Assembly (NCBI RefSeq): GCF_900141815.1
Contig: NZ_FQYR01000002.1
Coordinates: 186,001-250,000 of the forward strand
Length of the DNA: 64,000 nucleotides
Source of the DNA: Rubritalea squalenifaciens DSM 18772
GTDB lineage: Bacteria; Verrucomicrobiota; Verrucomicrobiia; Verrucomicrobiales; Akkermansiaceae
Direction of reading: 5' to 3'
Shown here: in pieces, positions 3,477 through 15,325 of the stretch
Layout: each line of letters starts with the position of its first letter
How positions within the stretch are numbered: the first letter of the stretch is position 1
Notes under the pieces: generated by a model
Told to the model about the DNA's origin: nothing
The model's input: only the letters and a program-made list of their open reading frames with translations
Database searches by the model: none
Translations under genes and position numbers: made by a program

Positions 3477-4844
3477 ATGCTGAAACACAATCTATGCGGA
3501 GTGCTACTAGGCCTCCTGGCAAGCACCTCTGCCTTTGCGGACAAGAAACCTAATGTTGTCATCCTTTACTCTGACGATGCCGGCTATGCTGACTTTGGCT
3601 TCCAGCCCAACTGCGTAGAGGACATGAAAAAGCTCACGCCTCATATCGACTCGATCGCCAAAGAGGGTGCCCGCTTCTCCAATGCCTACATGTCTGGCTG
3701 TGTGTGCTCACCCTCCCGGGCAGGCCTGATGACCGGCCGCTACCAGCAGCGCTTCGGCTATGACAACAATCTGCCTCCCGGCTCCAAAGGCGGCCTGGAT
3801 CTCAATGAGACCTTCGGCGTGAAGCACCTCAAAGGCCTGGGCTACAAGACCGGCCTGGTCGGCAAGTGGCACCTGGGCTACCAACCGCAGTTCCACCCGA
3901 ACAAGCGAGGCTTCGATTGGTTCTACGGCCTGCTGCAAGGTTCCCGCGGCTATTTCCCCTATGACAAGCCATCCGCACACCGCGTGATCCAGGAGAATGG
4001 TGAGGCTACCAAGGAAATCGGCTACGTGACCGACCGCTTCGGGGATGCCGCCTGCCAGTTCATCAAGGAGCACAAGGACGAGCCCTTCTACCTTTTCGTC
4101 TCTTTCACCTCCCCCCATGGACCACTGCAGCCCAAACCAGAAGACCTCAAGCGTCTCGAGCACATCACTGAGAAAAAACGTAAGAACTATGCCGGCCTCG
4201 TCCTCAGCCTGGATGACAATGTAGGCAAGATTCTCAAGGAGATCGATCAGGCAGGGATCAAGGATAACACGATCGTCATCTATACCAATGACAACGGCGG
4301 CCAGACGGCACTCGGCGCTGACAACACTCCGCTCAAAGGCAAGAAAGGCACCATCTGGGAAGGCGGCACCCGCGTCCCATTCGCCGTGCGCTGGCCTCAT
4401 AAGATCAAGCCCGGCAGCGTAGTCGATCAACCCGTCATCTCCCTCGACATCCTTCCAAGTGTGGTGGAAGCCGCTGGCGATCAGATCCCAGCCGACTGGA
4501 AGCTCGACGGCCGCAGCTTCCTGCCGCTTGCTACCGGGAAAGAAGCATCTCTGCCTACCCGCACCCTACACTGGCGCAAGGACGGCTCCAAGGGCCCGAT
4601 CAGTATCCGTGAGGGTAAGTGGAAGCTGATCCACAACCGTGGTGAAGCCGGTGCCAAGCCAGAGCTCTATGACCTGAGCAAAGACATCAGTGAGTCCACC
4701 GATGTTTCCTCCGCCAACCCCGAGATCATGGCTCAGCTCACCGCAAAGATGAAAGCCTGGGAAAGCCAGATGACCGAACCACTCTGGGGACCAAACTCCG
4801 TGGGCAAGGAAAGCAAGCCAGAGAAGAAGAAGCGCAAGAAGTAG
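3477..4844 (+). CDS. Exported arylsulfatase A-like sulfatase (S1 family)
   Basis: It is predicted to hydrolyse a sulfate ester from a carbohydrate outside the cytoplasm. A signal peptide (residues 1-21, cut near AFA-D) precedes the sulfatase fold. Visible are metal-binding Asp33-Asp34, the maturation motif CSPSR (Cys77 to Arg81) whose Cys becomes formylglycine, GKWHLGY, and TNDNGG with further metal ligands. Length is 455 residues and the tail is Lys-rich (KPEKKKRKK). It stands alone on the plus strand between the pseudokinase and a strong terminator, while the other nine sulfatases are on the minus strand. The substrate cannot be told from sequence alone. Confidence 0.93.
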   Translation: MLKHNLCGVLLGLLASTSAFADKKPNVVILYSDDAGYADFGFQPNCVEDMKKLTPHIDSIAKEGARFSNAYMSGCVCSPSRAGLMTGRYQQRFGYDNNLPPGSKGGLDLNETFGVKHLKGLGYKTGLVGKWHLGYQPQFHPNKRGFDWFYGLLQGSRGYFPYDKPSAHRVIQENGEATKEIGYVTDRFGDAACQFIKEHKDEPFYLFVSFTSPHGPLQPKPEDLKRLEHITEKKRKNYAGLVLSLDDNVGKILKEIDQAGIKDNTIVIYTNDNGGQTALGADNTPLKGKKGTIWEGGTRVPFAVRWPHKIKPGSVVDQPVISLDILPSVVEAAGDQIPADWKLDGRSFLPLATGKEASLPTRTLHWRKDGSKGPISIREGKWKLIHNRGEAGAKPELYDLSKDISESTDVSSANPEIMAQLTAKMKAWESQMTEPLWGPNSVGKESKPEKKKRKK

Positions 4845-5805: not shown

Positions 5806-7053
5806 CTATCCTGCTGGCACGCCGAAGATCGTAACCATGAGGCACAGCACCGCGGTGATGATGAAAAAGATACAGCGTCCGTGATGAGTCTCTTTTCTCG
5901 CCAAGAGCGCGGCTACCAAGGCCTGCAAACAGTAAAACAAGGCAAAGGCTCTGGAAGCCACCGCGATCACCTCATTCACCGAGGTCAACCAGACCACGGA
6001 AATGGAGGCAGCCATCACAATCGCATAGGCAATCTTGGGCTTGATGGAAAAGAGATCCTCTAGCAGCCCCCCTGCTGCCGCATCATCTGCTACCGAGGCA
6101 CTGAACTGGGATCCTATCGCCGCCACAGTCAAGAGGACCGGCAGGACCGCCGCGATGGGCGCTGTCAGCTTGATCACCTCTGTAACCTTGGCATCCATAT
6201 TGGCTTCAAAGAGCACTGTCATCAGGCCGATGAATAGGATGTAGATCACCGTAGAGATCCACTGGGCGTAGCGCATGGTCTTGATGCGTTGCTCGGCAGG
6301 ATGCTCATCTCCAAGATAGCGTGAAGTTTCAAATCCTTGCACCACGATCAGCAGACCTAACAGAACCCTGAATTCATAAGCGCCCATGTCCGGCGAACTT
6401 GGCGGAAGCTTCCAGTTTCCCTCAGTGAACAGACCGATGTTGTAGGTGGCCAAGGCGACCAACAATGCGGTGATCATGCCCAGGTTCAAGCTGATCGCAT
6501 ACTTCTCTAGCCCCTCCAGAGACCGCAGCCCTTTGGTCACTCCTACGAAGGCAATGACGGCTAGAATCGTAGTCGTTAGGAACTCTACCTTGAGGTGCTC
6601 ATCGATGCCGAAGCTCGTCAGCGCAAAGGTGGAGAGAAGCTGCAAGTAGTAGGCCACCGAGATGAAGTAGGCCAGTGAAAGAACTATCCGCGAAAGGAAG
6701 GCGATCTTCTGCGGCGTGCCATTCTTGTGCTCAATGGGTTCAAAGTAGCGGATGTTGTAGCGCACGACCTCGCCCACACAGTAGGCCATCACCAGCAGAA
6801 TCAGCATGAACAGGACCGACCAGGGACCAGCTATGCCGCCGATCAGTGGCGCACACACCAGAAAGCCACTCCCCATGATGGAGGCCAGCGGGGTCAAAGT
6901 AGCCTTCCAAGTTTTTGATCCGCTGAGTTTCTTAGAAAAGGCAAGAAAGGCAGCCACCGAGAGGGCAATGAGCACGATGAGTATGTTCACTACTACCACA
7001 TTAGGGAGAACCCAGACACAGTGCAATCTGTAATCCGGTCTCATTGCGATCAT
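5806..7053 (-). CDS. APC/LeuT-type multi-pass membrane transporter of unknown substrate
   Basis: The protein has up to 415 residues and about 11-12 hydrophobic segments. Its first helix carries an unwound-looking Gly-rich stretch (LASIMGSGFLVCAPLIGGIAGPW) like that in amino-acid/polyamine or Na-coupled LeuT-fold carriers. The substrate cannot be assigned. The start is doubtful: the first 18 codons are polar, and GTG codons at 6999 or 6990 sit right before the first membrane helix. A later start would also free the -35 box proposed at 7044-7049 for the divergent small gene. It is convergent with the CvfB gene. Confidence 0.75.
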   Translation of the reverse strand: MIAMRPDYRLHCVWVLPNVVVVNILIVLIALSVAAFLAFSKKLSGSKTWKATLTPLASIMGSGFLVCAPLIGGIAGPWSVLFMLILLVMAYCVGEVVRYNIRYFEPIEHKNGTPQKIAFLSRIVLSLAYFISVAYYLQLLSTFALTSFGIDEHLKVEFLTTTILAVIAFVGVTKGLRSLEGLEKYAISLNLGMITALLVALATYNIGLFTEGNWKLPPSSPDMGAYEFRVLLGLLIVVQGFETSRYLGDEHPAEQRIKTMRYAQWISTVIYILFIGLMTVLFEANMDAKVTEVIKLTAPIAAVLPVLLTVAAIGSQFSASVADDAAAGGLLEDLFSIKPKIAYAIVMAASISVVWLTSVNEVIAVASRAFALFYCLQALVAALLARKETHHGRCIFFIITAVLCLMVTIFGVPAG

Positions 7054-7072
7054 CCGGATCCCGTGCTATTCT
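7044..7072 (+). promoter_or_regulatory. Predicted sigma70-type promoter for the small UGA-containing gene
   Basis: TTGCGA (7044-7049) and TATTCT (7067-7072) are separated by 17 bp, and the -10 is preceded by TGC as in extended -10 elements. The expected transcription start falls at or within a base of the ATG at 7078, which suggests a leaderless mRNA and would explain why no ribosome-binding site is visible. This is a sequence-pattern inference only. Confidence 0.45.
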
Positions 7073-7077
7073 AGCGC

Positions 7078-7260
7078 ATGGAACCATTCTTAGTTTTGTT
7101 CGGCGTGATCGCGCTCTACTTTGCACTCCAGCTGTGGATTCTTCCCGCGCTGGGCCTCCCTACCTGAATGTCCGGAAAATGCTCCCGGTCTGGGAGTAAG
7201 GACAAGAAAAAGAAAGAGGACGAGGCTGCCAGCAAAGAGGACTCAAAGCCCAACGACTAG
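7078..7260 (+). CDS. Candidate small membrane selenoprotein (in-frame TGA as Sec)
   Basis: The ATG at 7078 opens 29 codons encoding one membrane helix (MEPFLVLFGVIALYFALQLW, then ILPALGLPT), followed by TGA at 7165-7167. The same frame continues without a break for 30 codons (MSGKC..., then a Lys/Glu-rich tail) to TAG at 7258-7260. Read through, this is a 60-residue protein with one transmembrane segment, a U30-M-S-G-K-C35 motif at the membrane edge and a charged tail. A hairpin directly after the TGA has the fdhF-type SECIS loop GGUCU at nearly the same distance (19 nt here, 18 nt in E. coli fdhF). Sec30 and Cys35 would form a redox pair; the function is unknown. The alternative is two overlapping mini-ORFs of 29 and 30 residues (TGA then ATG). 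No sel genes lie in the window. Confidence 0.6.
7169..7204 (+). promoter_or_regulatory. Candidate bacterial SECIS hairpin
   Basis: Starting 2 nt after the TGA (7165-7167), a lower stem TGTCC (7169-7173) pairs with GGACA (7200-7204). There is an internal loop GGAAAA opposite a single A. An upper 7-bp stem TGCTCCC (7180-7186) pairs with GGGAGTA (7192-7198) with one G-U pair, closing a 5-nt loop GGTCT (7187-7191). Known bacterial SECIS elements need a stem just 3' of UGA with G (and U) in the apical loop for SelB; GGUCU is the loop sequence of E. coli fdhF. The hairpin lies inside the coding frame, as in other bacterial selenoprotein genes. Confidence 0.6.
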
Positions 7261-7281
7261 CAGCCCCACAAAGGCAACCCT

Positions 7282-7734
7282 CTAGAGACGACCTTCCTCC
7301 AGGTCGTAGACATCAAACCAGACATAGACTGGACGATGCTTGGGAACGTATTCCTTGATGTAACCTTCCAGGAATTCCTGCAGTTCATCCGGCATGTCCG
7401 CGATCGACTTGTAACGAAGATCGTTGTTCCACTTGATGATTTCTATTTTCTCCCGCTTCTTGGCGTGTCTCTCGATGAAGTTTTCCACCTCCTTGTCCGT
7501 AGCACCCGTGGCCACGAATTCCCTGAAGGTATGCGAGTCGATCTCCGTAAAGTCAAAGAACAGGCGGTCCAGCGGGCAGTCAAAGTGATACTCATCATTC
7601 GTCTCCGCAATCACCGCACGGCATTTGTCTAACATCCGCGCCGCGATGACGTATCCGGCAATGGTGTCACGCGGGCTACGAGGGGGCTCCTTGGAGAGGT
7701 CCTTGGCGAGTTGTTTTAATTGTTCATTAGCCAT
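7282..7734 (-). CDS. DUF5069 family protein
   Basis: This soluble protein has about 150 residues. Its N-terminal pattern, DLSKEPPRSPRDTIAGYVIAARMLDKCRA, is that of the DUF5069 family, which has no known function. The start is set at MANEQLKQL (7734) because the family pattern follows soon after it; an upstream ATG at 7755 would add seven residues. It is convergent with the candidate selenoprotein gene (21 bp apart) and lies downstream of the LamG PEP-CTERM gene. Confidence 0.75.
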   Translation of the reverse strand: MANEQLKQLAKDLSKEPPRSPRDTIAGYVIAARMLDKCRAVIAETNDEYHFDCPLDRLFFDFTEIDSHTFREFVATGATDKEVENFIERHAKKREKIEIIKWNNDLRYKSIADMPDELQEFLEGYIKEYVPKHRPVYVWFDVYDLEEGRL

Positions 7735-7803
7735 ATCACCACACAGGTCGCCCATCTTGGTGAGATGTCAATGAGCCAGCATGTTAGCGTAGACAAATAG
7801 CTA

Positions 7804-8607
7804 CTAGCGGCGACGACGGAGGATGAATCCGAGTCCGGCCAGCCCAAGTAGGGCTGCCCCTGATGGCTCAGGAATGGAGGCCACACCACTGTTAAAAATC
7901 TGTGTGCGATCTTGCTCATCAAGCACTTCATTCCACATCGCGAAGTCATCCATTTCACCTGCCCACAAGCCATTATTGAATGAGAAAGCACCAAGCTCAA
8001 AGTTCTGGATGCCCGCCCAGTTGATCGCTCCACCTGGAGCTGAGTTATTGGAAAATTGTAAGACGTTGTTTTTATAGATGGCCATCTGGCCGGCATCACC
8101 ATCATAGGTAAAGATGTAGTGATTCAGATCAGATGAGACATCTCCCAGATCTCCGCTGACCCGGTTTGCAGAGCTGACATCCCAGGCCGCATCAAAGTAG
8201 GTGGTCCCGTCCGACCACTCCAAGTGCGCTTGCAAGATGCGGGTACCGACTGAGTTATTACTATTACTGATCGTAAATGGATTGGACCCCACGCTCTCAC
8301 TGTTCACGTTCGCCCAGAATGCAATCGTGACCTGATTACCCGTAACGGTATTCAAGCTGGAAATCGTGGAGGCAGAAACACCGCCAGCACGAGCCAAGGC
8401 TCCGCCCAGATTCACTGATCCTCCAAAGGCTCCGCCCGTCGCATTCCAGGTAGAGCCTCCATTCAAGGTTAGGTCTCGTCCATTGCCTGAACTATCGGTC
8501 ACCGTGGTACCACTACCCTCGTCAAAGGCGTAGTGAAGTAGCAAGGCTGCATGAGACGAGCCAGTGAGTACAAGCAAGCTGAAGAGGGAGGTCGGGAGTA
8601 TTTTCAT
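7804..8607 (-). CDS. LamG-domain PEP-CTERM exported protein
   Basis: This 267-residue exported protein has a signal peptide (1-20, cut near SHA-A), a concanavalin/LamG-like beta-sandwich (about residues 21-240, opening LLHYAFDEGSGTTVTDSSGNGRDL, a common LamG start), and a C-terminal sorting signal: the PEP motif (IPEPSG), a hydrophobic stretch and RRRR. Such proteins are cleaved by exosortase and placed at the cell surface or in extracellular matrix. LamG domains often bind carbohydrate, which fits the next-door sulfatases, but no ligand can be named. No exosortase gene is in this window. Confidence 0.85.
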   Translation of the reverse strand: MKILPTSLFSLLVLTGSSHAALLLHYAFDEGSGTTVTDSSGNGRDLTLNGGSTWNATGGAFGGSVNLGGALARAGGVSASTISSLNTVTGNQVTIAFWANVNSESVGSNPFTISNSNNSVGTRILQAHLEWSDGTTYFDAAWDVSSANRVSGDLGDVSSDLNHYIFTYDGDAGQMAIYKNNVLQFSNNSAPGGAINWAGIQNFELGAFSFNNGLWAGEMDDFAMWNEVLDEQDRTQIFNSGVASIPEPSGAALLGLAGLGFILRRRR

Positions 8608-8687: not shown

Positions 8688-10169
8688 TCACAAAACCTCA
8701 TCCGGAAGCGGCACTGGCTTGCCAGTCTTCTTGACGGTCGCCATGAGTGCCTTGGTAGAGCGCAGGTGATCAGAGAGCAGCTTGGCCAGACGCTTAACGT
8801 CCTCAGCTTGCTTGGCAGCCAGATCATTTTCCTCACTCAAATCATCCTTGAGATTAAAGAGCTCGAGCTTCTGGGTGGCGTGCCAGTAGAGCAGCTTGAG
8901 ATCACCGAGTCTGACAGACGAGAAAGCCGGCTGGTCATAGGAATTCGGGTAATGCCAGAAGAGCGGGCGCTGGGAGCGATCGGTCGCCGGGTCATTGAGG
9001 ATCTCATCAAAAGAGAGTCCATCGTTCTGCGGGATCTCTTTCATGCCCGCCCACTCGAGGAAAGTCGGGAAGATATCTTCAATGATGATCGGGGCATCAG
9101 TGCGGGTGGTCTTCTTGGTGATTCCCGGGTAATGCACGATCATTGGTACGCGGGAGCCACCCTCGTAACCAGAAATCTTGTGACCACGAAGCGGCAGGTT
9201 GCGCTTGCAGTTTTTCGGAGAACCGTTGTCTGACATGAAGACAATGATGGTGTCTTCCGCGACCCCAAGCTCCTCGAAAGTATCCATCAAGTCACCCAGT
9301 GACTTGTCCATGGACTTAAGCATCGAGGCCAGAACCGCCTGCTGACCTTTGAGGCCTTTCTTTTTGAAATGATCGATGAAACGACGGTCTGCTTCCCAAG
9401 GCGCGTGAACGGCGTAATGGGACATGTAGAGGTAGAAAGGCTTCTTGTCCTCTTTGACGGTCTTCTTCAGCTCGGCGATAGTTTCGAGCGTCAGAGCCTC
9501 GGTGAGGTTGATCTTCTGGCCGTGGTATTTTTCTAAACCGGGGACACTCCAGATGGCGCCGCCACCTCGCCATACCGCGCTGAAGTCCTTGTCACCATGA
9601 TAGGAGCCAGGTCCGCCCATGTGGGCACCGGCGATGTTCACATTGAAACCCAGGTTGCTCGGGTTGGCACCCGGCGTATCCTTGGCACCAAAGTGAGCCT
9701 TGCCCACGTGGATGGTCTTGTAGCCCAGATCCTGAAGGTAGGCCGGTAGAGTCTTGGCTTCGAAGGTAGCTTCTACATTGGTCCCGGGAGGCTGGAGGCC
9801 ATTGAGGTTCCACTTCGGAGGCAAGAGCACCTTGGTATTCTCCCTGGGAGCCACATTTTTTCTGAGTGTCCAGCTAGTCACTTTATGGCGCGCAGCATTC
9901 TGGCCGGTCATCAGTGAGACGCGGGTTGGCGAACAAATCGCGCAGGCATAGGCATTGGTAAAGAGCATGCCTTCGCTAGCGAGACGCTTCATGTTCGGCG
10001 TCTCATAGACATCATTCAGGGCAGTGCGCTCCGGACCAAAGGCCACAGAGGTCTCTTGCCAGCCCATGTCATCCACCAGGAAGAACAGGATGTTAGGTTT
10101 TTCACTGGCGGATGCTAAGGATGTGAGGCCGAGCGCGAGCAAGGCCGCTGTCTGGAAGATTCTTTTCAT
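8688..10169 (-). CDS. Exported sulfatase (S1 family), last of four in tandem
   Basis: This 493-residue sulfatase has a signal peptide (1-22, SLASA-SEKPN), Asp33-Asp34 as metal ligands, the maturation motif CSPTR (Cys79), GKAHFG in place of the common GKWHLG, and MSDNGSPKN. It has the MTGQNAARH signature just after the Cys motif, shared with the sulfatase at 11798-13267, so the two are probably paralogues acting on related sugars. It is the promoter-distal gene of the four-sulfatase run starting at 15098, 72 bp from its upstream neighbour. The Trp-to-Ala change in GKAHFG may alter the substrate pocket. Confidence 0.92.
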   Translation of the reverse strand: MKRIFQTAALLALGLTSLASASEKPNILFFLVDDMGWQETSVAFGPERTALNDVYETPNMKRLASEGMLFTNAYACAICSPTRVSLMTGQNAARHKVTSWTLRKNVAPRENTKVLLPPKWNLNGLQPPGTNVEATFEAKTLPAYLQDLGYKTIHVGKAHFGAKDTPGANPSNLGFNVNIAGAHMGGPGSYHGDKDFSAVWRGGGAIWSVPGLEKYHGQKINLTEALTLETIAELKKTVKEDKKPFYLYMSHYAVHAPWEADRRFIDHFKKKGLKGQQAVLASMLKSMDKSLGDLMDTFEELGVAEDTIIVFMSDNGSPKNCKRNLPLRGHKISGYEGGSRVPMIVHYPGITKKTTRTDAPIIIEDIFPTFLEWAGMKEIPQNDGLSFDEILNDPATDRSQRPLFWHYPNSYDQPAFSSVRLGDLKLLYWHATQKLELFNLKDDLSEENDLAAKQAEDVKRLAKLLSDHLRSTKALMATVKKTGKPVPLPDEVL

Positions 10170-10241: not shown

Positions 10242-11771
10242 CTACTGCTTCAGCTCCGGGAAGCGGGTAAGGACGCTCTTGGGGAAGGGAATAACGCCAT
10301 CGTTCTTCTGCTTGGGTCCTGTGGTCGAGCGGCCATTGTGAATCATCTTGGCCAGCTCACCCGCGAGTTCCTTGACCAGCTCCGGATGCTCCTGGGAAAT
10401 ATCCTTGCTCTCCTTGGGGTCATTGCCGAGGTGGAAGAGCTGCACTTTATTCAGCAGCACCAGCTTGTAGGGACCTTTACGGATGGCGAAGCGACCGCCG
10501 ATGTCATGGTTCACCACCAGAGGCCTGTCCTTGAGAAGCTCTTTCTCACCAGTAAGAAGTGGCAGTAGATTGGTGCTATCCACAGCCGCCGTCTCAGGCA
10601 GCTTCTTGCCCAGTAGTGCAGCGGTGGTGGCGTAGAAGTCATTCAGGCAGACCACTTCTTCACACTTGCTGCCCGCTTTGACCTTGCCCGGCCAGCGGAC
10701 GATCAGCGGGACACGGTGGCCACCTTCGTGAATCTGGGCTTTCTGGCCCTTGAAGTGATGCCTTACGTCGATGCCGTTCTTCTTCAGCTTATCCAGCTGC
10801 CCCTTATGGGAGGCTGAGCCATTGTCAGCAGTAAAAATCAGGATCGTATTGTCCGCGACTCCTGCTTCTTCCAGAGCCTTGACCACCTGACCTACGACAG
10901 CATCTGTCTCCATGATAAAGTCCGCATAGGGAGTCACGCTCTGCCCCTGCCAGGGCTTGCTCGGAGAGATCGGGGTGTGGGGTGAGGTAAGGGGAAGATA
11001 GAGGAAAAAGGGCTTCTCCTGCTTGGACTGCTCCTTAATCCACTGGGCGGACTCGGTGCCTAGGCGAGGAAGGATGTCTTCCAGCTTCCAGCCGGGAGCC
11101 ATGACCCCTGGATGGCCAAACATATCTTTCGGCTTCCTTTCAGAAGGCAGGGGATCGGCATTGCGATTCTTGATCCAAGTATAGGGAGGCATGTTAGGGA
11201 GATCGACTCCAGACCAGTAATCAAAACCATGGTCCAGCGGGCCACCGGTCACCGGCTTGGTAAAATCAATGCTCTTCTCAACGGCGGCCAGCTTCTCCTT
11301 CATCTTCGCATTCTTGAAGAAGGCGTCCTGGTCGTTGACGTTGGCATTCGCATCCTTGCCTTCCGCGTCTTTCCAGTCGAGACCCAAGTGCCATTTGCCG
11401 ATCATCCCTGTGGTGTATCCTTCCTGCTGCAGGAACTCCGGGTAGGTCATCAGCTCGTCTTCAATCAAGGGTCTACCGTAATCCCAGAGAACGGCACTCT
11501 TCAGGCGAGAGCGCCAGCTGTAGCGGCCAGTCAAAATCCCATAGCGGGTAGGCGTACAGACAGCTGAACCCGAGTGACCATCAGTAAAGGTCATGCTCTG
11601 AGGGATCAGTTTGTCGATGTTTGGAGTCTTCAAAGGCCCCATGGCGGAGTTCAGGCCAGAGACGGAGTCGTAACTCATGTCATCCGCCAGGATAAAAACA
11701 ATGTTCGGCTTGTCCGCAGCCTGAGCCGCCAGCGACAAGGCGCCGAGAAGAGAGAAGAGTGTTTTGTACAT
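10242..11771 (-). CDS. Exported arylsulfatase (S1 family), third of four in tandem
   Basis: This 509-residue sulfatase has a signal peptide (1-18, LAAQA-ADKPN), Asp30-Asp31, the maturation motif CTPTR (Cys72), GRYSWRSRLK, GKWHLGLDW and FTADNGSASHKG. It closely resembles the sulfatase at 28283-29806 in motif order, length and C-terminal ending (ND-G-IPF ... FPELKQ versus YPVLNQ), so the two are paralogues. It lies 26 bp downstream of the second sulfatase, implying co-transcription. The substrate is unknown. Confidence 0.92.
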   Translation of the reverse strand: MYKTLFSLLGALSLAAQAADKPNIVFILADDMSYDSVSGLNSAMGPLKTPNIDKLIPQSMTFTDGHSGSAVCTPTRYGILTGRYSWRSRLKSAVLWDYGRPLIEDELMTYPEFLQQEGYTTGMIGKWHLGLDWKDAEGKDANANVNDQDAFFKNAKMKEKLAAVEKSIDFTKPVTGGPLDHGFDYWSGVDLPNMPPYTWIKNRNADPLPSERKPKDMFGHPGVMAPGWKLEDILPRLGTESAQWIKEQSKQEKPFFLYLPLTSPHTPISPSKPWQGQSVTPYADFIMETDAVVGQVVKALEEAGVADNTILIFTADNGSASHKGQLDKLKKNGIDVRHHFKGQKAQIHEGGHRVPLIVRWPGKVKAGSKCEEVVCLNDFYATTAALLGKKLPETAAVDSTNLLPLLTGEKELLKDRPLVVNHDIGGRFAIRKGPYKLVLLNKVQLFHLGNDPKESKDISQEHPELVKELAGELAKMIHNGRSTTGPKQKNDGVIPFPKSVLTRFPELKQ

Positions 11772-11797: not shown

Positions 11798-13267
11798 TTA
11801 TTCAGGTGTCAGGACTTTGCCTGCGGCATCAATGGGATACTGAGCATCTTCTCTGACCAACCTACTCTTTAGTTCGGCGCAGAGGCGCTGCACTTGGACA
11901 CCCTCTTGCTCCGCCAGGTCATTTTTCTCAAATGGGTCCTCTTTGAGGTTATAGAGTTCGTAACGCTTTTTACCAAAATAGTGGTAGATGAGCTTCCAGT
12001 CTCCCAGGCGAAGGGAGGTAAAATAAGAACTCTTATGATCATGCGGAAAATGCATCAAGAAGGCCTGCTCATGCAGGGGATCATCTTTTCCACTGAACAA
12101 TGCTTTCAGGTTGAAGCCATCCACGGGGTGGCCTTTGGGGCTCTCCGTACCAGTCAGATCCAGAACGGTAGGGAAGATGTCCATCACGGTGCCGATGGCC
12201 TCTGCCTGCAACTTTCCTTGAGCGATCGGCCAGGCTTTCTGGAGTTCCGAATCAGGGTCAGATTTTGCCCAGGCCGCAATGAAGGGCACGCGGGTTCCTC
12301 CTTCATAGCAGGTCCCCTTCATACCGCGCAGTGGAGCAGAGGAGCCGTAAGCTTTGGCTTTCCCCACCGGACAGGCACTGCCATTGTCTCCTAGGAAAAG
12401 AATCAGGGTATTCTCAGCCTGCCCAATTTGATCCAGATGATCCATGATATCTCCGAGCGACTTGTCCATGCCTTCCACCAGGGCGGCAAACGCGCAGGCT
12501 CCCTTCGATTTCCCTTTGTAGTTGCCGATGTATCGCGGATCCGGAGTAAAGGGCCCATGCACCGCATAATGTGACATATAGAGGTAGAAAGGCTTCTTGT
12601 CTTTCACTGAGTCATCGATGGCCTTATTAGCCTCAAAGGTCAGAGCCTCAGTCAGAAAGGTGCCTGTGTTGTGGTATTTCTCCAGCCCCGGTACCGGACG
12701 ACTGGATTTCTGGCCATAGTCGCCCACATAGGTCCCAGGCCTACCGATGGCTGAACCAGCGATATTCACCTCAAATCCCAGATTAAGGGGCTCAGCCCCC
12801 TCGCTCTCTAGTGGGCCAAAGTGCCCCTTGCCTACATGGATGGTGCGGTAGCCATTCTTCTGCAAGATGCGTGGAAGGGTCAGCGCATTTTTGGTCAGGC
12901 CTTTCCAGTTCCACTCAGGAGGGCCAAACTTGCCCCGGTTATTGGATCCCGGATTGATGAACTGCGTGGTGTGATGACGCGTGGCATTCTGCCCGGTCAT
13001 GATAGATGCCCTAGTCGGAGAGCACACACTCTGTGCGTAGAAATGGGTAAAGCGAATGCCTTGCTTGGCCAGGCGCTCCATATTTGGAGTGCGGTACCAC
13101 TCATTCAAGGGATAGGATTTCGGATTTCCCGATTCATCAGTTAGAAAAGGGACCGAAGTATCCATCACCCCCATGTCATCGACGAGAAAAACAACAACGT
13201 TAGGTTTCTGTGGAGCGGCGGTGAGTGAACAAGCAAGTGCTAGGGAAAGCGCGTGTAGAGTCTTCAT
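11798..13267 (-). CDS. Exported sulfatase (S1 family), second of four in tandem
   Basis: This 489-residue sulfatase has a signal peptide (1-18, SLTAA-PQKPN), Asp30-Asp31, the maturation motif CSPTR (Cys82), the MTGQNATRH signature, GKGHFG in place of GKWHLG, and LGDNGSACP. It is paralogous to the sulfatase at 8688-10169, sharing the same replacement of Trp-His-Leu by a small residue-His-Phe. Only 16 bp separate it from the first gene and 26 bp from the third, so the run is almost certainly one transcript. Confidence 0.92.
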   Translation of the reverse strand: MKTLHALSLALACSLTAAPQKPNVVVFLVDDMGVMDTSVPFLTDESGNPKSYPLNEWYRTPNMERLAKQGIRFTHFYAQSVCSPTRASIMTGQNATRHHTTQFINPGSNNRGKFGPPEWNWKGLTKNALTLPRILQKNGYRTIHVGKGHFGPLESEGAEPLNLGFEVNIAGSAIGRPGTYVGDYGQKSSRPVPGLEKYHNTGTFLTEALTFEANKAIDDSVKDKKPFYLYMSHYAVHGPFTPDPRYIGNYKGKSKGACAFAALVEGMDKSLGDIMDHLDQIGQAENTLILFLGDNGSACPVGKAKAYGSSAPLRGMKGTCYEGGTRVPFIAAWAKSDPDSELQKAWPIAQGKLQAEAIGTVMDIFPTVLDLTGTESPKGHPVDGFNLKALFSGKDDPLHEQAFLMHFPHDHKSSYFTSLRLGDWKLIYHYFGKKRYELYNLKEDPFEKNDLAEQEGVQVQRLCAELKSRLVREDAQYPIDAAGKVLTPE

Positions 13268-13283
13268 GCTTCTTTATGATTTC

Positions 13284-15098
13284 TTATTTCTGAATCTTAC
13301 GAATATAGATGAAATAGGCGCCTGTCAGCGGTTTGCCATTCTCTCCCAGCAACATGGCTTTGATCTCATGCCTGCCCGCAGTCAGCTCGCGCTCAAAGAC
13401 AGCTGATTCAGCACCTTCGGACGGCTTGTTCAAATCAGGCTCCGCACCATCGATACTCAGGCTTACGGATTCCACGGGCAGAGCTACAGCCTTACCTTTC
13501 GCTCCCTGCAGTAGACCATGCACAGGCTTGCCCCCGGTGACATAGGAATCGACCAGGCGCTTCTTCAGATCTGGGGCGGCATTCAAAGCAGTCTTGGCTT
13601 CACGAGGCCAGCGGCGTACTTCCAGACGGTACTTGCCCGGCTGCTGCACCCGCACCACCCAGTTGCCGCTGCTGCGGACTCCGCGTGCCACCAGGGCGTG
13701 GTTCCACGGCTCCATCGAGCGCCCGTAGCAATCATGGCTGTGCAGCATCACCTCCGGCTGCTGCTCGCTGCCCACGATCTTTGTCTCCACTTTCTCCTGG
13801 GGCCTGCCGACATCCTTTGCATAGGCCAGATAGTCATCACGCAGTTGCTTCACCAGATCAGAATTCCCTGCTGCTAGATCCTGTTTCTGCCCTGAATCCT
13901 TGGAAATATCATAGAGCTGCTTGCCATTGACCAGACGCCACTTGCCGCGCAGCACCACGGATGCCTCAAAGTCCTTGCCGTTAAAGTTTCGCTGGCGCTC
14001 GATCACTGTGGAGCGTTCCGGAAGTTTCGCTTCCGGATTTCTCAGCTGTGTGGCAAAGCTCCTGCCATCCAGCTTTACTCTCTCTGGAGTCTTTAGATCT
14101 AACATGTCCACCAAGGTCGGTAGGATATCAATGTGCATGGTCATCCCTCCCACTTCTTTCCCCGCTGCCAGCTTACCGGCAGGCCAATGCACGAAGAGTG
14201 GGACACGGTGACCTCCATCGTATTCACTGCCTTTCTTGCCACGCATCCCGGCATTGAATACCTTCACACCAGCTGTCCCTCCATTGTCTGTTAGAAAAAT
14301 GAAAATGGTATTCTCTGAAAGATTTCTCTCTTCTAACAACTTCCTAAGTTTTCCGATCCGTTCATCGATTCTTCTGATGCCAGCGTAGAAGTACTGGGCC
14401 TTGTGCTTCTTCACCGTATCGGAGAAGGGCTCGGCCAGTTTGAGATCCGGAATGGTATGGGGGCCGTGAGGCAGGTAAGTAGGCAGATAGAGGAAGAAGG
14501 GCTGATCACCTGGGGTGGTTTTGACGAAGTTCTCGGCGGCATCAAAGAAGACATCAGGCGCCCAGCCTTCGCGTGGCTTCTCTTCCCACTCTCCATTGTA
14601 GTTGTAGAGATCGTTGACGCGGTCATTGAACATGTAGTCCGCCGTGGTTCCTGGGCCTCCGTCTCCCAGAGTCAGCACCTCCTGAAAACCCCGATCGATC
14701 GGGCGGTAAGGCACGCCATTACCCAGATGCCATTTGCCGAACATGCCCGTCCGGTATCCATTCTGCGTGAACACATCGGCCATCGTCACTTCGCCCTCAC
14801 GCAGGAAATTACCGGAGACAATGGTGTGCCAGACACCCACTCTGCGTGAGTAGCGCCCGGTCATCAGAGCCGATCGGGTCGGGGAGCAGGTGGGGTCTAC
14901 ATGGAAATCTGTAAATCTTACAGAATTGGCATGCAGGGCATCCAGATTCGGGGTCTGGAAATGGGCATTTCCCAGACAAGAAAGGTCACCGTAGCCCTGG
15001 TCATCAGTCATGATCACGACGACATTCGGCTTCACGGGAGCGGCGGATACCAGCCCCGATAGGAGGATGGTTAGGAAAGCAGAAAGTTTTTTCATCAT
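13284..15098 (-). CDS. Exported arylsulfatase with C-terminal extension, first of four in tandem
   Basis: The start is taken at the ATG-ATG at 15098 (MMKKLSAFLTILLSGLVSAA), which gives a clean signal peptide; an upstream ATG at 15191 would bury it. The 604-residue product has Asp32-Asp33, the maturation motif CSPTR (Cys71), GKWHLGNG and LTDNGGTAG. After the catalytic fold (to about residue 440) comes a beta-rich extension of about 150 residues (GNWVVRVQQPGKYRLEVRRWP ...), which looks like a carbohydrate-binding or sandwich domain. It is the first gene of the operon, divergent from the SH3 gene across a 227-bp gap in which I saw no clear promoter. Confidence 0.92.
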   Translation of the reverse strand: MMKKLSAFLTILLSGLVSAAPVKPNVVVIMTDDQGYGDLSCLGNAHFQTPNLDALHANSVRFTDFHVDPTCSPTRSALMTGRYSRRVGVWHTIVSGNFLREGEVTMADVFTQNGYRTGMFGKWHLGNGVPYRPIDRGFQEVLTLGDGGPGTTADYMFNDRVNDLYNYNGEWEEKPREGWAPDVFFDAAENFVKTTPGDQPFFLYLPTYLPHGPHTIPDLKLAEPFSDTVKKHKAQYFYAGIRRIDERIGKLRKLLEERNLSENTIFIFLTDNGGTAGVKVFNAGMRGKKGSEYDGGHRVPLFVHWPAGKLAAGKEVGGMTMHIDILPTLVDMLDLKTPERVKLDGRSFATQLRNPEAKLPERSTVIERQRNFNGKDFEASVVLRGKWRLVNGKQLYDISKDSGQKQDLAAGNSDLVKQLRDDYLAYAKDVGRPQEKVETKIVGSEQQPEVMLHSHDCYGRSMEPWNHALVARGVRSSGNWVVRVQQPGKYRLEVRRWPREAKTALNAAPDLKKRLVDSYVTGGKPVHGLLQGAKGKAVALPVESVSLSIDGAEPDLNKPSEGAESAVFERELTAGRHEIKAMLLGENGKPLTGAYFIYIRKIQK

Positions 15099-15325
15099 AG
15101 CAGAGGGTTCACGTGAATTACACATTTGCGTAGTCCATAGCATACGCCAACCCACTTGGCTTCTTACAGATAAAAACCTTTGCCCGGTCAACTCCCCACA
15201 CCAGACACTTAGTCATGCGACTAGGATGAACAGACCAGCCCAGAGAAACACCATCTTCACCATCCGAAGGTAAATTGGGCTGAAAGTAGTTTGCCGTAAC
15301 AGGCCACATCCGTTAATGCTCCTGC

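Follow-up and report, generated by a model that had tools for sequence, protein, structure and literature searches.

Does the in-frame TGA at the end of a 29-codon open reading frame in this DNA terminate a short membrane peptide, or is it read as selenocysteine (Sec) within a protein of twice that length? The window, by which we mean the whole stretch of 64,000 nucleotides that was analysed, had been described in an earlier note as holding such a frame, with a single membrane helix ahead of the TGA and 30 more open codons behind it. Translation confirmed this layout: the ATG opens 29 sense codons, and after the TGA come 30 codons beginning M-S-G-K-C and a TAG (Table 1). The product reads MEPFLVLFGVIALYFALQLWILPALGLPT-U-MSGKCSRSGSKDKKKKEDEAASKEDSKPND. 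AlphaFold2 predicted one membrane helix, and the mean pLDDT was 88 and 91 for residues 1-20 and at most 61 beyond. Residue 30 lies five residues past the predicted end of the helix and hence close to the edge of the membrane. That the frame stays open beyond the TGA was rejected as evidence for Sec. The median was 28 codons in frame vs. 26 in frame +1, and because frame +1 is equally open, openness by itself is uninformative.

Table 1. Positions in the window of the predicted selenoprotein gene, its elements, and its neighbours.
Feature	Positions	Strand	Basis
Predicted selenoprotein gene, 60 codons including Sec30	7078..7260	+	TAG stop at 7258-7260; aligned with 19 homologues
UGA, predicted to be read as selenocysteine, residue 30	7165..7167	+	90 of 93 family loci with TGA, 3 with Cys
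Single predicted membrane helix, residues 3-25	7084..7152	+	AlphaFold2
Cys35 codon, partner in U-x4-C	7180..7182	+	Invariant in 20-row alignment
Bacterial SECIS-type hairpin, two-part stem	7169..7204	+	Fold, shuffles, published model
Apical loop GGUCU, 19 nt past the UGA	7187..7191	+	Fold
Amino acid permease-like, divergent neighbour	5806..7053	-	Weak PF13520 match, under Pfam's cut-off
DUF5069 protein, convergent neighbour	7282..7755	-	PF16798, E 1.6e-37

A contig scan with six search patterns, one of which spanned the Sec position and required Cys, returned 19 homologous loci from records named Verrucomicrobiales, Akkermansiaceae, Roseibacillus, Obscuribacter(ales), Melainabacteria or Cyanobacteria. 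In none of these homologues does the frame stop at the TGA; all 19 carried it at the aligned position, with conserved sequence on both sides. The 20-row alignment that includes the window is invariant for LYFALQLWILP..G..TU....C (LYFALQLWILP, G26, T29, U30, and C35). In other subtypes the +5 Cys is replaced by a second U or has no counterpart. Among the Akkermansiaceae, the family of the window's genome, 62 of 260 genomes in 8 of 16 genera had a match, 61 with TGA and one (G354) with Cys. In the class to which an Obscuribacterales genome belongs, taken here to be Vampirovibrionia, matches were found in 36 of 289 genomes, or 34 after removal of two weak rows (G696 and G842, left out of the contingency table given below, their translations unread); for this class 30 loci were fetched and the remaining rows were judged by stop counts alone. 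When loci with identical sequence over the 60 nt that begin at the Sec codon were collapsed, 88 distinct loci were recovered by motif, window included (86 U and 2 C). Five loci missed by the motif add 4 U and 1 C, so that UGA-containing homologues make up 90 of the 93 family loci, the other 3 having Cys.

A search of 387 genomes of the phylum with the first profile gave eight genomes with a match. The window's own genome, G237, G240, and G354 were kept, and G184, G282, G338, and G339 were discarded after their translations were read. In the phylum around G615 (386 genomes) a match was found in G615 alone, and its loci L152 and L153 stand outside the counts. Viral contigs yielded 14 pattern matches and no relative, and no relative was found on plasmids. 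Several Obscuribacter-type genomes hold two or three matches each (L034; e.g. G616 and G690). A divergent homologue with the sequence VILPKLGFRTUMSGGCSVEP was seen at L113, on the minus strand of a small contig from a genome that is 65% complete and has a two-TGA form as well; it is perhaps a contaminant from another lineage.

Cys homologues aligned at position 30, which the earlier note had proposed as a check, were present at three loci (L114, L128, and L151). Two of them have close relatives with TGA. L151 (TGT) and its sister L143 (TGA) show 10 differences in the next 117 nt, 6 of them synonymous, and L128 is 90.5% identical to L140 beyond the hairpin described below, with 2 synonymous and 4 nonsynonymous changes. 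At L114, in G354, the gene order (DoxX - Cys protein - TANGO2-type) is the same as at L088, a locus with four TGAs, and no selA was detected in this genome; selA is present in G741 and G695, the genomes of the other two Cys forms. Over nine independent pairs the pN/pS ratio past the hairpin was 0.40 (28 changes over 137.7 synonymous sites vs. 41 over 504.3 nonsynonymous sites), which indicates that purifying selection acts on the peptide beyond the hairpin.

A two-part hairpin with a GGUCU apical loop, placed by the earlier note 19 nt past the TGA, was borne out by folding. Positions 7165-7210 fold at -14.9 kcal/mol, an energy reached by 2 of 200 dinucleotide-shuffled sequences (z = -3.16), with a lower stem at 7169-7173/7200-7204 and an upper stem of 7 bp at 7180-7186/7192-7198 (p = 0.02 vs. 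synonymous shuffles). The bacterial SECIS model of PMC13188914, as given in the part of that paper used here, comprises a loop of 3-9 nt with G in the first two loop positions, a stem of 4-16 bp, a spacing of 16-37 nt, and an MFE of -7.5 or lower. The window hairpin satisfies this model with its 7-bp stem, GGUCU loop, 19-nt spacing, and energy of -14.9 kcal/mol. Rfam returned no match at E <= 1 for positions 6500-8000.

Across the family we used a hairpin criterion of our own, chosen after hairpins had been inspected: a perfect stem of at least 5 bp and a loop of 4-6 nt with GGU, GGG, or AGU, 10-24 nt after the TGA. Such hairpins were found in 65 of 74 loci, compared to 11.2 expected from synonymous shuffles; single-locus p values were modest (median 0.053). 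In the enlarged set they follow 76 of 86 family TGAs and are missing from 10. As controls we took long ORFs at these loci, where 5 of 183 ending in TGA and 4 of 271 ending in TAA or TAG had such a hairpin (9 of 454 in total). Later TGAs in the same frames served as a further control (23 frames, in each of which we took the earliest TGA at a distance of over 13 and at most 50 codons from the first), and 2 of the 23 had a hairpin, both in multi-TGA forms (L076 and L088). When the published model was used and its energy limit imposed on just the upper hairpin, 47 of 85 family hairpins passed vs. 15 of 184 and 26 of 272 controls, and when our loop and stem rule was combined with it 47 of 85 passed vs. 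2 of 184 and 0 of 272. The hairpin is kept in relatives, where stem positions change on both sides with pairing retained. Stem pair 4 (n = 85), for example, is CG in 28, GC in 28, TA in 17, TG in 5, AT in 1, GT in 1, and unpaired in five, in hairpins positioned by best stem, a procedure biased towards pairing.

The window's genome (G000; 4.3 Mb, 96.74% complete) was found to encode selA, selB, selC, and selD, the four genes whose absence the earlier note would have counted against a selenoprotein. The tRNA-Sec scored 50.8 bits vs. a gathering score of 47, and ARAGORN called it SeC with anticodon tca. selB (TIGR00475, 300 bits, cut-off 242) and selD (TIGR00476, 378 bits, cut-off 125) were detected directly, and selA was found with the full-domain model PF03841 (421 bits), the short N-terminal model PF12390 giving no match. 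The selD frame reads ...MASCGGUASK... across one in-frame TGA (L022:7185-8237), and the selD product of this genome is itself predicted to be a selenoprotein.

Presence of the gene was further compared with presence of selA. In Akkermansiaceae (n = 260) both were found in 57 genomes, the gene only in 5, selA only in 13, and neither in 185 (Fisher p = 1.5e-38), and in the class of the Obscuribacter type (n = 289) the corresponding numbers were 30, 4, 8, and 247 (p = 3.8e-29); both p values ignore shared ancestry. The Akkermansiaceae genomes with the gene only are G354 (Cys) and G536, G551, G559, and G593 (TGA). Each group has four TGA holders without detected selA, among them G536, which is rated 96% complete; the missing selA genes are perhaps assembly gaps. 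selA was found in 10 of the 12 genomes reached via 13 Obscuribacter-type loci.

The Sec machinery, the 90 U and 3 C loci, the hairpins, and the co-occurrence with selA, all drawn from sequence comparison, strongly support the earlier note's view of the UGA as selenocysteine. We consider it highly probable that the product of the frame is a selenoprotein of 60 residues with one membrane helix and with UGA decoded as Sec30. SelB and tRNA-Sec would decode the UGA at 7165, directed by the hairpin at 7169-7204. Standard gene calling would end at the TGA and leave a 29-residue membrane peptide followed by a hairpin that is a terminator or a chance structure, and the openness of the frame, not significant by itself, does not speak against such an ordinary stop. 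It is nevertheless very improbable, given that the TGA is kept in 90 of 93 loci with a conserved peptide beyond it and replaced by Cys in the remaining three, that pN/pS after it is 0.40, that hairpins are far more frequent than in the controls, and that the gene co-occurs with selA. A promoter and terminator scan called no site on the + strand there, which counts against a terminator. Readthrough with insertion of some other residue (Trp, or unspecific readthrough) is a further alternative to Sec, since sequence comparison does not identify the residue directly. We give this equally little credence, since all three natural substitutions are Cys, since Sec machinery and a SECIS-type hairpin co-occur with the TGA, and since the Cys holder of the Akkermansiaceae lacks a detected selA, though G741 and G695 have one.

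Many relatives carry more than one Sec codon per frame. Of the 88 loci, 54 have U-x4/5-C, 28 have a second U, and 4 have neither of these; the other 2 are Cys forms. In the 28, the second TGA lies within 13 codons of the first, at +10 to +12, and in a less collapsed set 27 of 29 second TGAs were followed by a hairpin of at least 5 bp (3.8 expected). Locus L088 (G541, minus strand; TGA at 2999 of the reverse complement) has four in-frame TGAs at 36-nt steps before the stop. The stem-loops after them fold at -12.9, -13.5, -10.2, and -12.4 kcal/mol; the first three hairpins have CAGUCUGGGAGCAC in common and the fourth has a GGUC loop. Judged by its sequence, L088 is a tandem Sec-SECIS expansion. 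In the four loci with neither partner there is one Sec, no Cys at +5 or +6, and no second Sec within 13 residues. At L067, L069, and L080 an Asn stands at the +5 Cys position and no second Sec is nearby, so Sec alone seems to be enough there.

Two further observations concern TGAs further downstream. At L076 (G527) a TGA 29 codons past the first is followed by a 7-bp CGGGU hairpin and is perhaps another Sec codon. At L026, L031, L066, L073, L074, and L075 a later TGA overlaps an ATGTGC start and has a hairpin in 0 of 6 cases; these frames therefore seem to hold both a Sec UGA and a stop UGA, and the later TGA is the likely stop of the selenoprotein frame.

The genes around the family members were inspected for hints of function. 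Next to the gene in the window lies neither a TANGO2 nor a globin gene; its permease-like and DUF5069 neighbours (Table 1) are, as far as seen, not part of the system. A run of ORFs that we take to be sulfatase-like surrounds the gene (3477-4844, 8688-10169, 10242-11771, 11798-13267, and 13284-15191). In 23 of the 62 Akkermansiaceae genomes, from six of the eight genera, a TANGO2/HtpA-type gene starts within 400 nt downstream, one representative being called by Pfam (PF05742, E 5e-10) and the others by BLAST cluster or by the motif MC..NRDE; by motif, there is none within 400 nt in the other 39. At five loci the TANGO2-type start falls inside the end of the selenoprotein gene (start at 74-83 nt and stop ending 87-96 nt from the Sec codon). 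In another genus a globin is encoded immediately upstream in 10 of 12 genomes, by motif, with PF01152 for one representative. DoxX (PF07681) is upstream at L088 and, by BLAST cluster, at L114, and a gene for a cupredoxin-type (copper-binding, PF00127) protein is convergently downstream in an 11-locus cluster. Representatives of seven neighbour clusters were run on Pfam and gave cupredoxin, TANGO2, RimK-like, acyltransferase, globin, and DoxX, one being without a match. The cupredoxin, acyltransferase, and ATP-grasp clusters, identified by Pfam, have no clear link to the selenoprotein, nor have two others that are presumably argininosuccinate synthase and glycyl-tRNA synthetase. The 13 Obscuribacter-type loci from the first contig scan showed no constant neighbour. 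Bacterial TANGO2 homologues have been reported to bind heme and to help in cytochrome c maturation (PMC10470608, in the part used here). For human TANGO2, acyl-CoA binding is reported and the heme role is said to have been questioned (PMC11867700, likewise in part).

From these data we tentatively propose a membrane-tethered selenol/thiol redox device that acts on heme-bound, peroxide, or thiol substrates with a TANGO2/HtpA-type or globin partner. The selenol of Sec30 would cycle with the +5 Cys (U-x4-C) or with a second Sec at +10 to +12, and the resulting selenenylsulfide or diselenide cycle would reduce these substrates at the membrane. The selenoprotein may work with the TANGO2/HtpA-type protein or globin encoded alongside it in many relatives; gene order is what suggests the link to heme. 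Against this function stand the window's own neighbours, the 39 genomes with no TANGO2-type gene nearby, the lack of a constant neighbour among the 13 Obscuribacter-type loci, and the four loci with neither a +5/+6 Cys nor a close second Sec. In a bolder and rather doubtful extension, the family would add Sec-plus-SECIS modules in tandem, from one or two up to four Sec with a hairpin for every UGA, and its selenenylsulfide or diselenide switches would feed electrons to heme carried by an adjacent TANGO2/HtpA protein or globin, as a selenium-based heme-reduction system at the membrane.

Other roles for the selenoprotein have to be weighed against this redox device. Binding or delivery of metal or selenium, the protein then being a chaperone for soft metals or a carrier of selenium instead of a redox catalyst, would suit the U-x4-C motif and the multi-Sec tails (four Sec in L088), which could bind soft metals or carry selenium, and the cupredoxin-type gene in the 11-locus cluster agrees with it. 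Four loci, however, have a single Sec and lack both a Cys at +5/+6 and another Sec in the next 13 residues, and none of the six clusters that matched Pfam, out of the seven run, is a metal transporter; we regard such a carrier as rather unlikely. About as unlikely, in our judgement, is a structural or assembly subunit of a membrane complex (e.g. DoxX-type or respiratory) in which Sec would be a ligand. The helix sequence LYFALQLWILP is very strict, which suggests packing against a membrane partner, and a DoxX-like gene adjoins L088 and L114. The DoxX link, however, is found at two loci only, and no membrane partner was consistently present from genus to genus.

The earlier note knew of no described family with this layout, and its statement stands after comparison with Pfam, NCBIfam, and a literature catalogue. 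The window protein matched no Pfam and no NCBIfam family at E <= 1. At E <= 0.1, none of five other subtypes matched Pfam, and one of six matched NCBIfam, the four-Sec form, with three matches far below the cut-offs. Table 1 of PMC13188914 (2026), a catalogue of 119 families, has no entry of a single-helix, 60-residue, U-x4-C layout as judged by name and motif. In searches of the open-licence PMC literature we recognised no description of this family, the candidates of a groundwater MAG study cited in a 2026 review being outside the comparison. The family of small one-helix membrane selenoproteins in Akkermansiaceae and Obscuribacter/Melainabacteria-type bacteria is thus apparently undescribed.

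With the catalogued bSECIS selenoproteins it shares, as far as the parts of PMC13188914 used here describe them, an in-frame UGA, an immediate G-loop hairpin at 16-37 nt, SelA/SelB/SelC/SelD, and Cys homologues. The nearest catalogued motif in that source is the UxxxxU of the rhodanese/DsbD fusion TsoB, and it mentions a small subset with 2-3 Sec, whereas one member of the present family has four. The eukaryotic proteins SELENOK and SELENOS, as described in part of PMC10650576, resemble it in layout: they have a single membrane helix at the N-terminus, then a disordered tail that carries Sec, and no thioredoxin fold. The single N-terminal helix is matched by the predicted helix 3-25 of the window protein. 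SELENOS forms a selenenylsulfide, according to the same part of that paper. The window protein has a Lys-rich tail, and the two-Sec type has SSGGG, features that might or might not correspond to the Gly-rich, positively charged segment of SELENOK and SELENOS. In SELENOK and SELENOS, however, Sec occupies the second or third position from the C-terminal end, whereas in the window protein it is residue 30 of 60, just past the helix, with 30 residues after it. The TANGO2/HtpA heme-trafficking proteins are gene-order neighbours of the selenoprotein, not the same protein. The family is easy to miss because the frame before the TGA has 29 codons and because one detection method may fail in the absence of Cys homologues, as the authors of deep-Sep say of their method (PMC12013277, in the part used here).

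The predicted selenoprotein family has an unusual layout, with one membrane helix, no recognised domain, and Sec near the membrane edge, and it documents probable Sec use in Akkermansiaceae and Melainabacteria-type lineages. Members with tandem Sec/SECIS units offer natural material for studying the decoding of several UGAs in one short message, and the stop UGAs without a hairpin in some of the same frames provide built-in controls. The TANGO2 and globin neighbours may tie selenium to bacterial heme handling, a connection that is directly testable.
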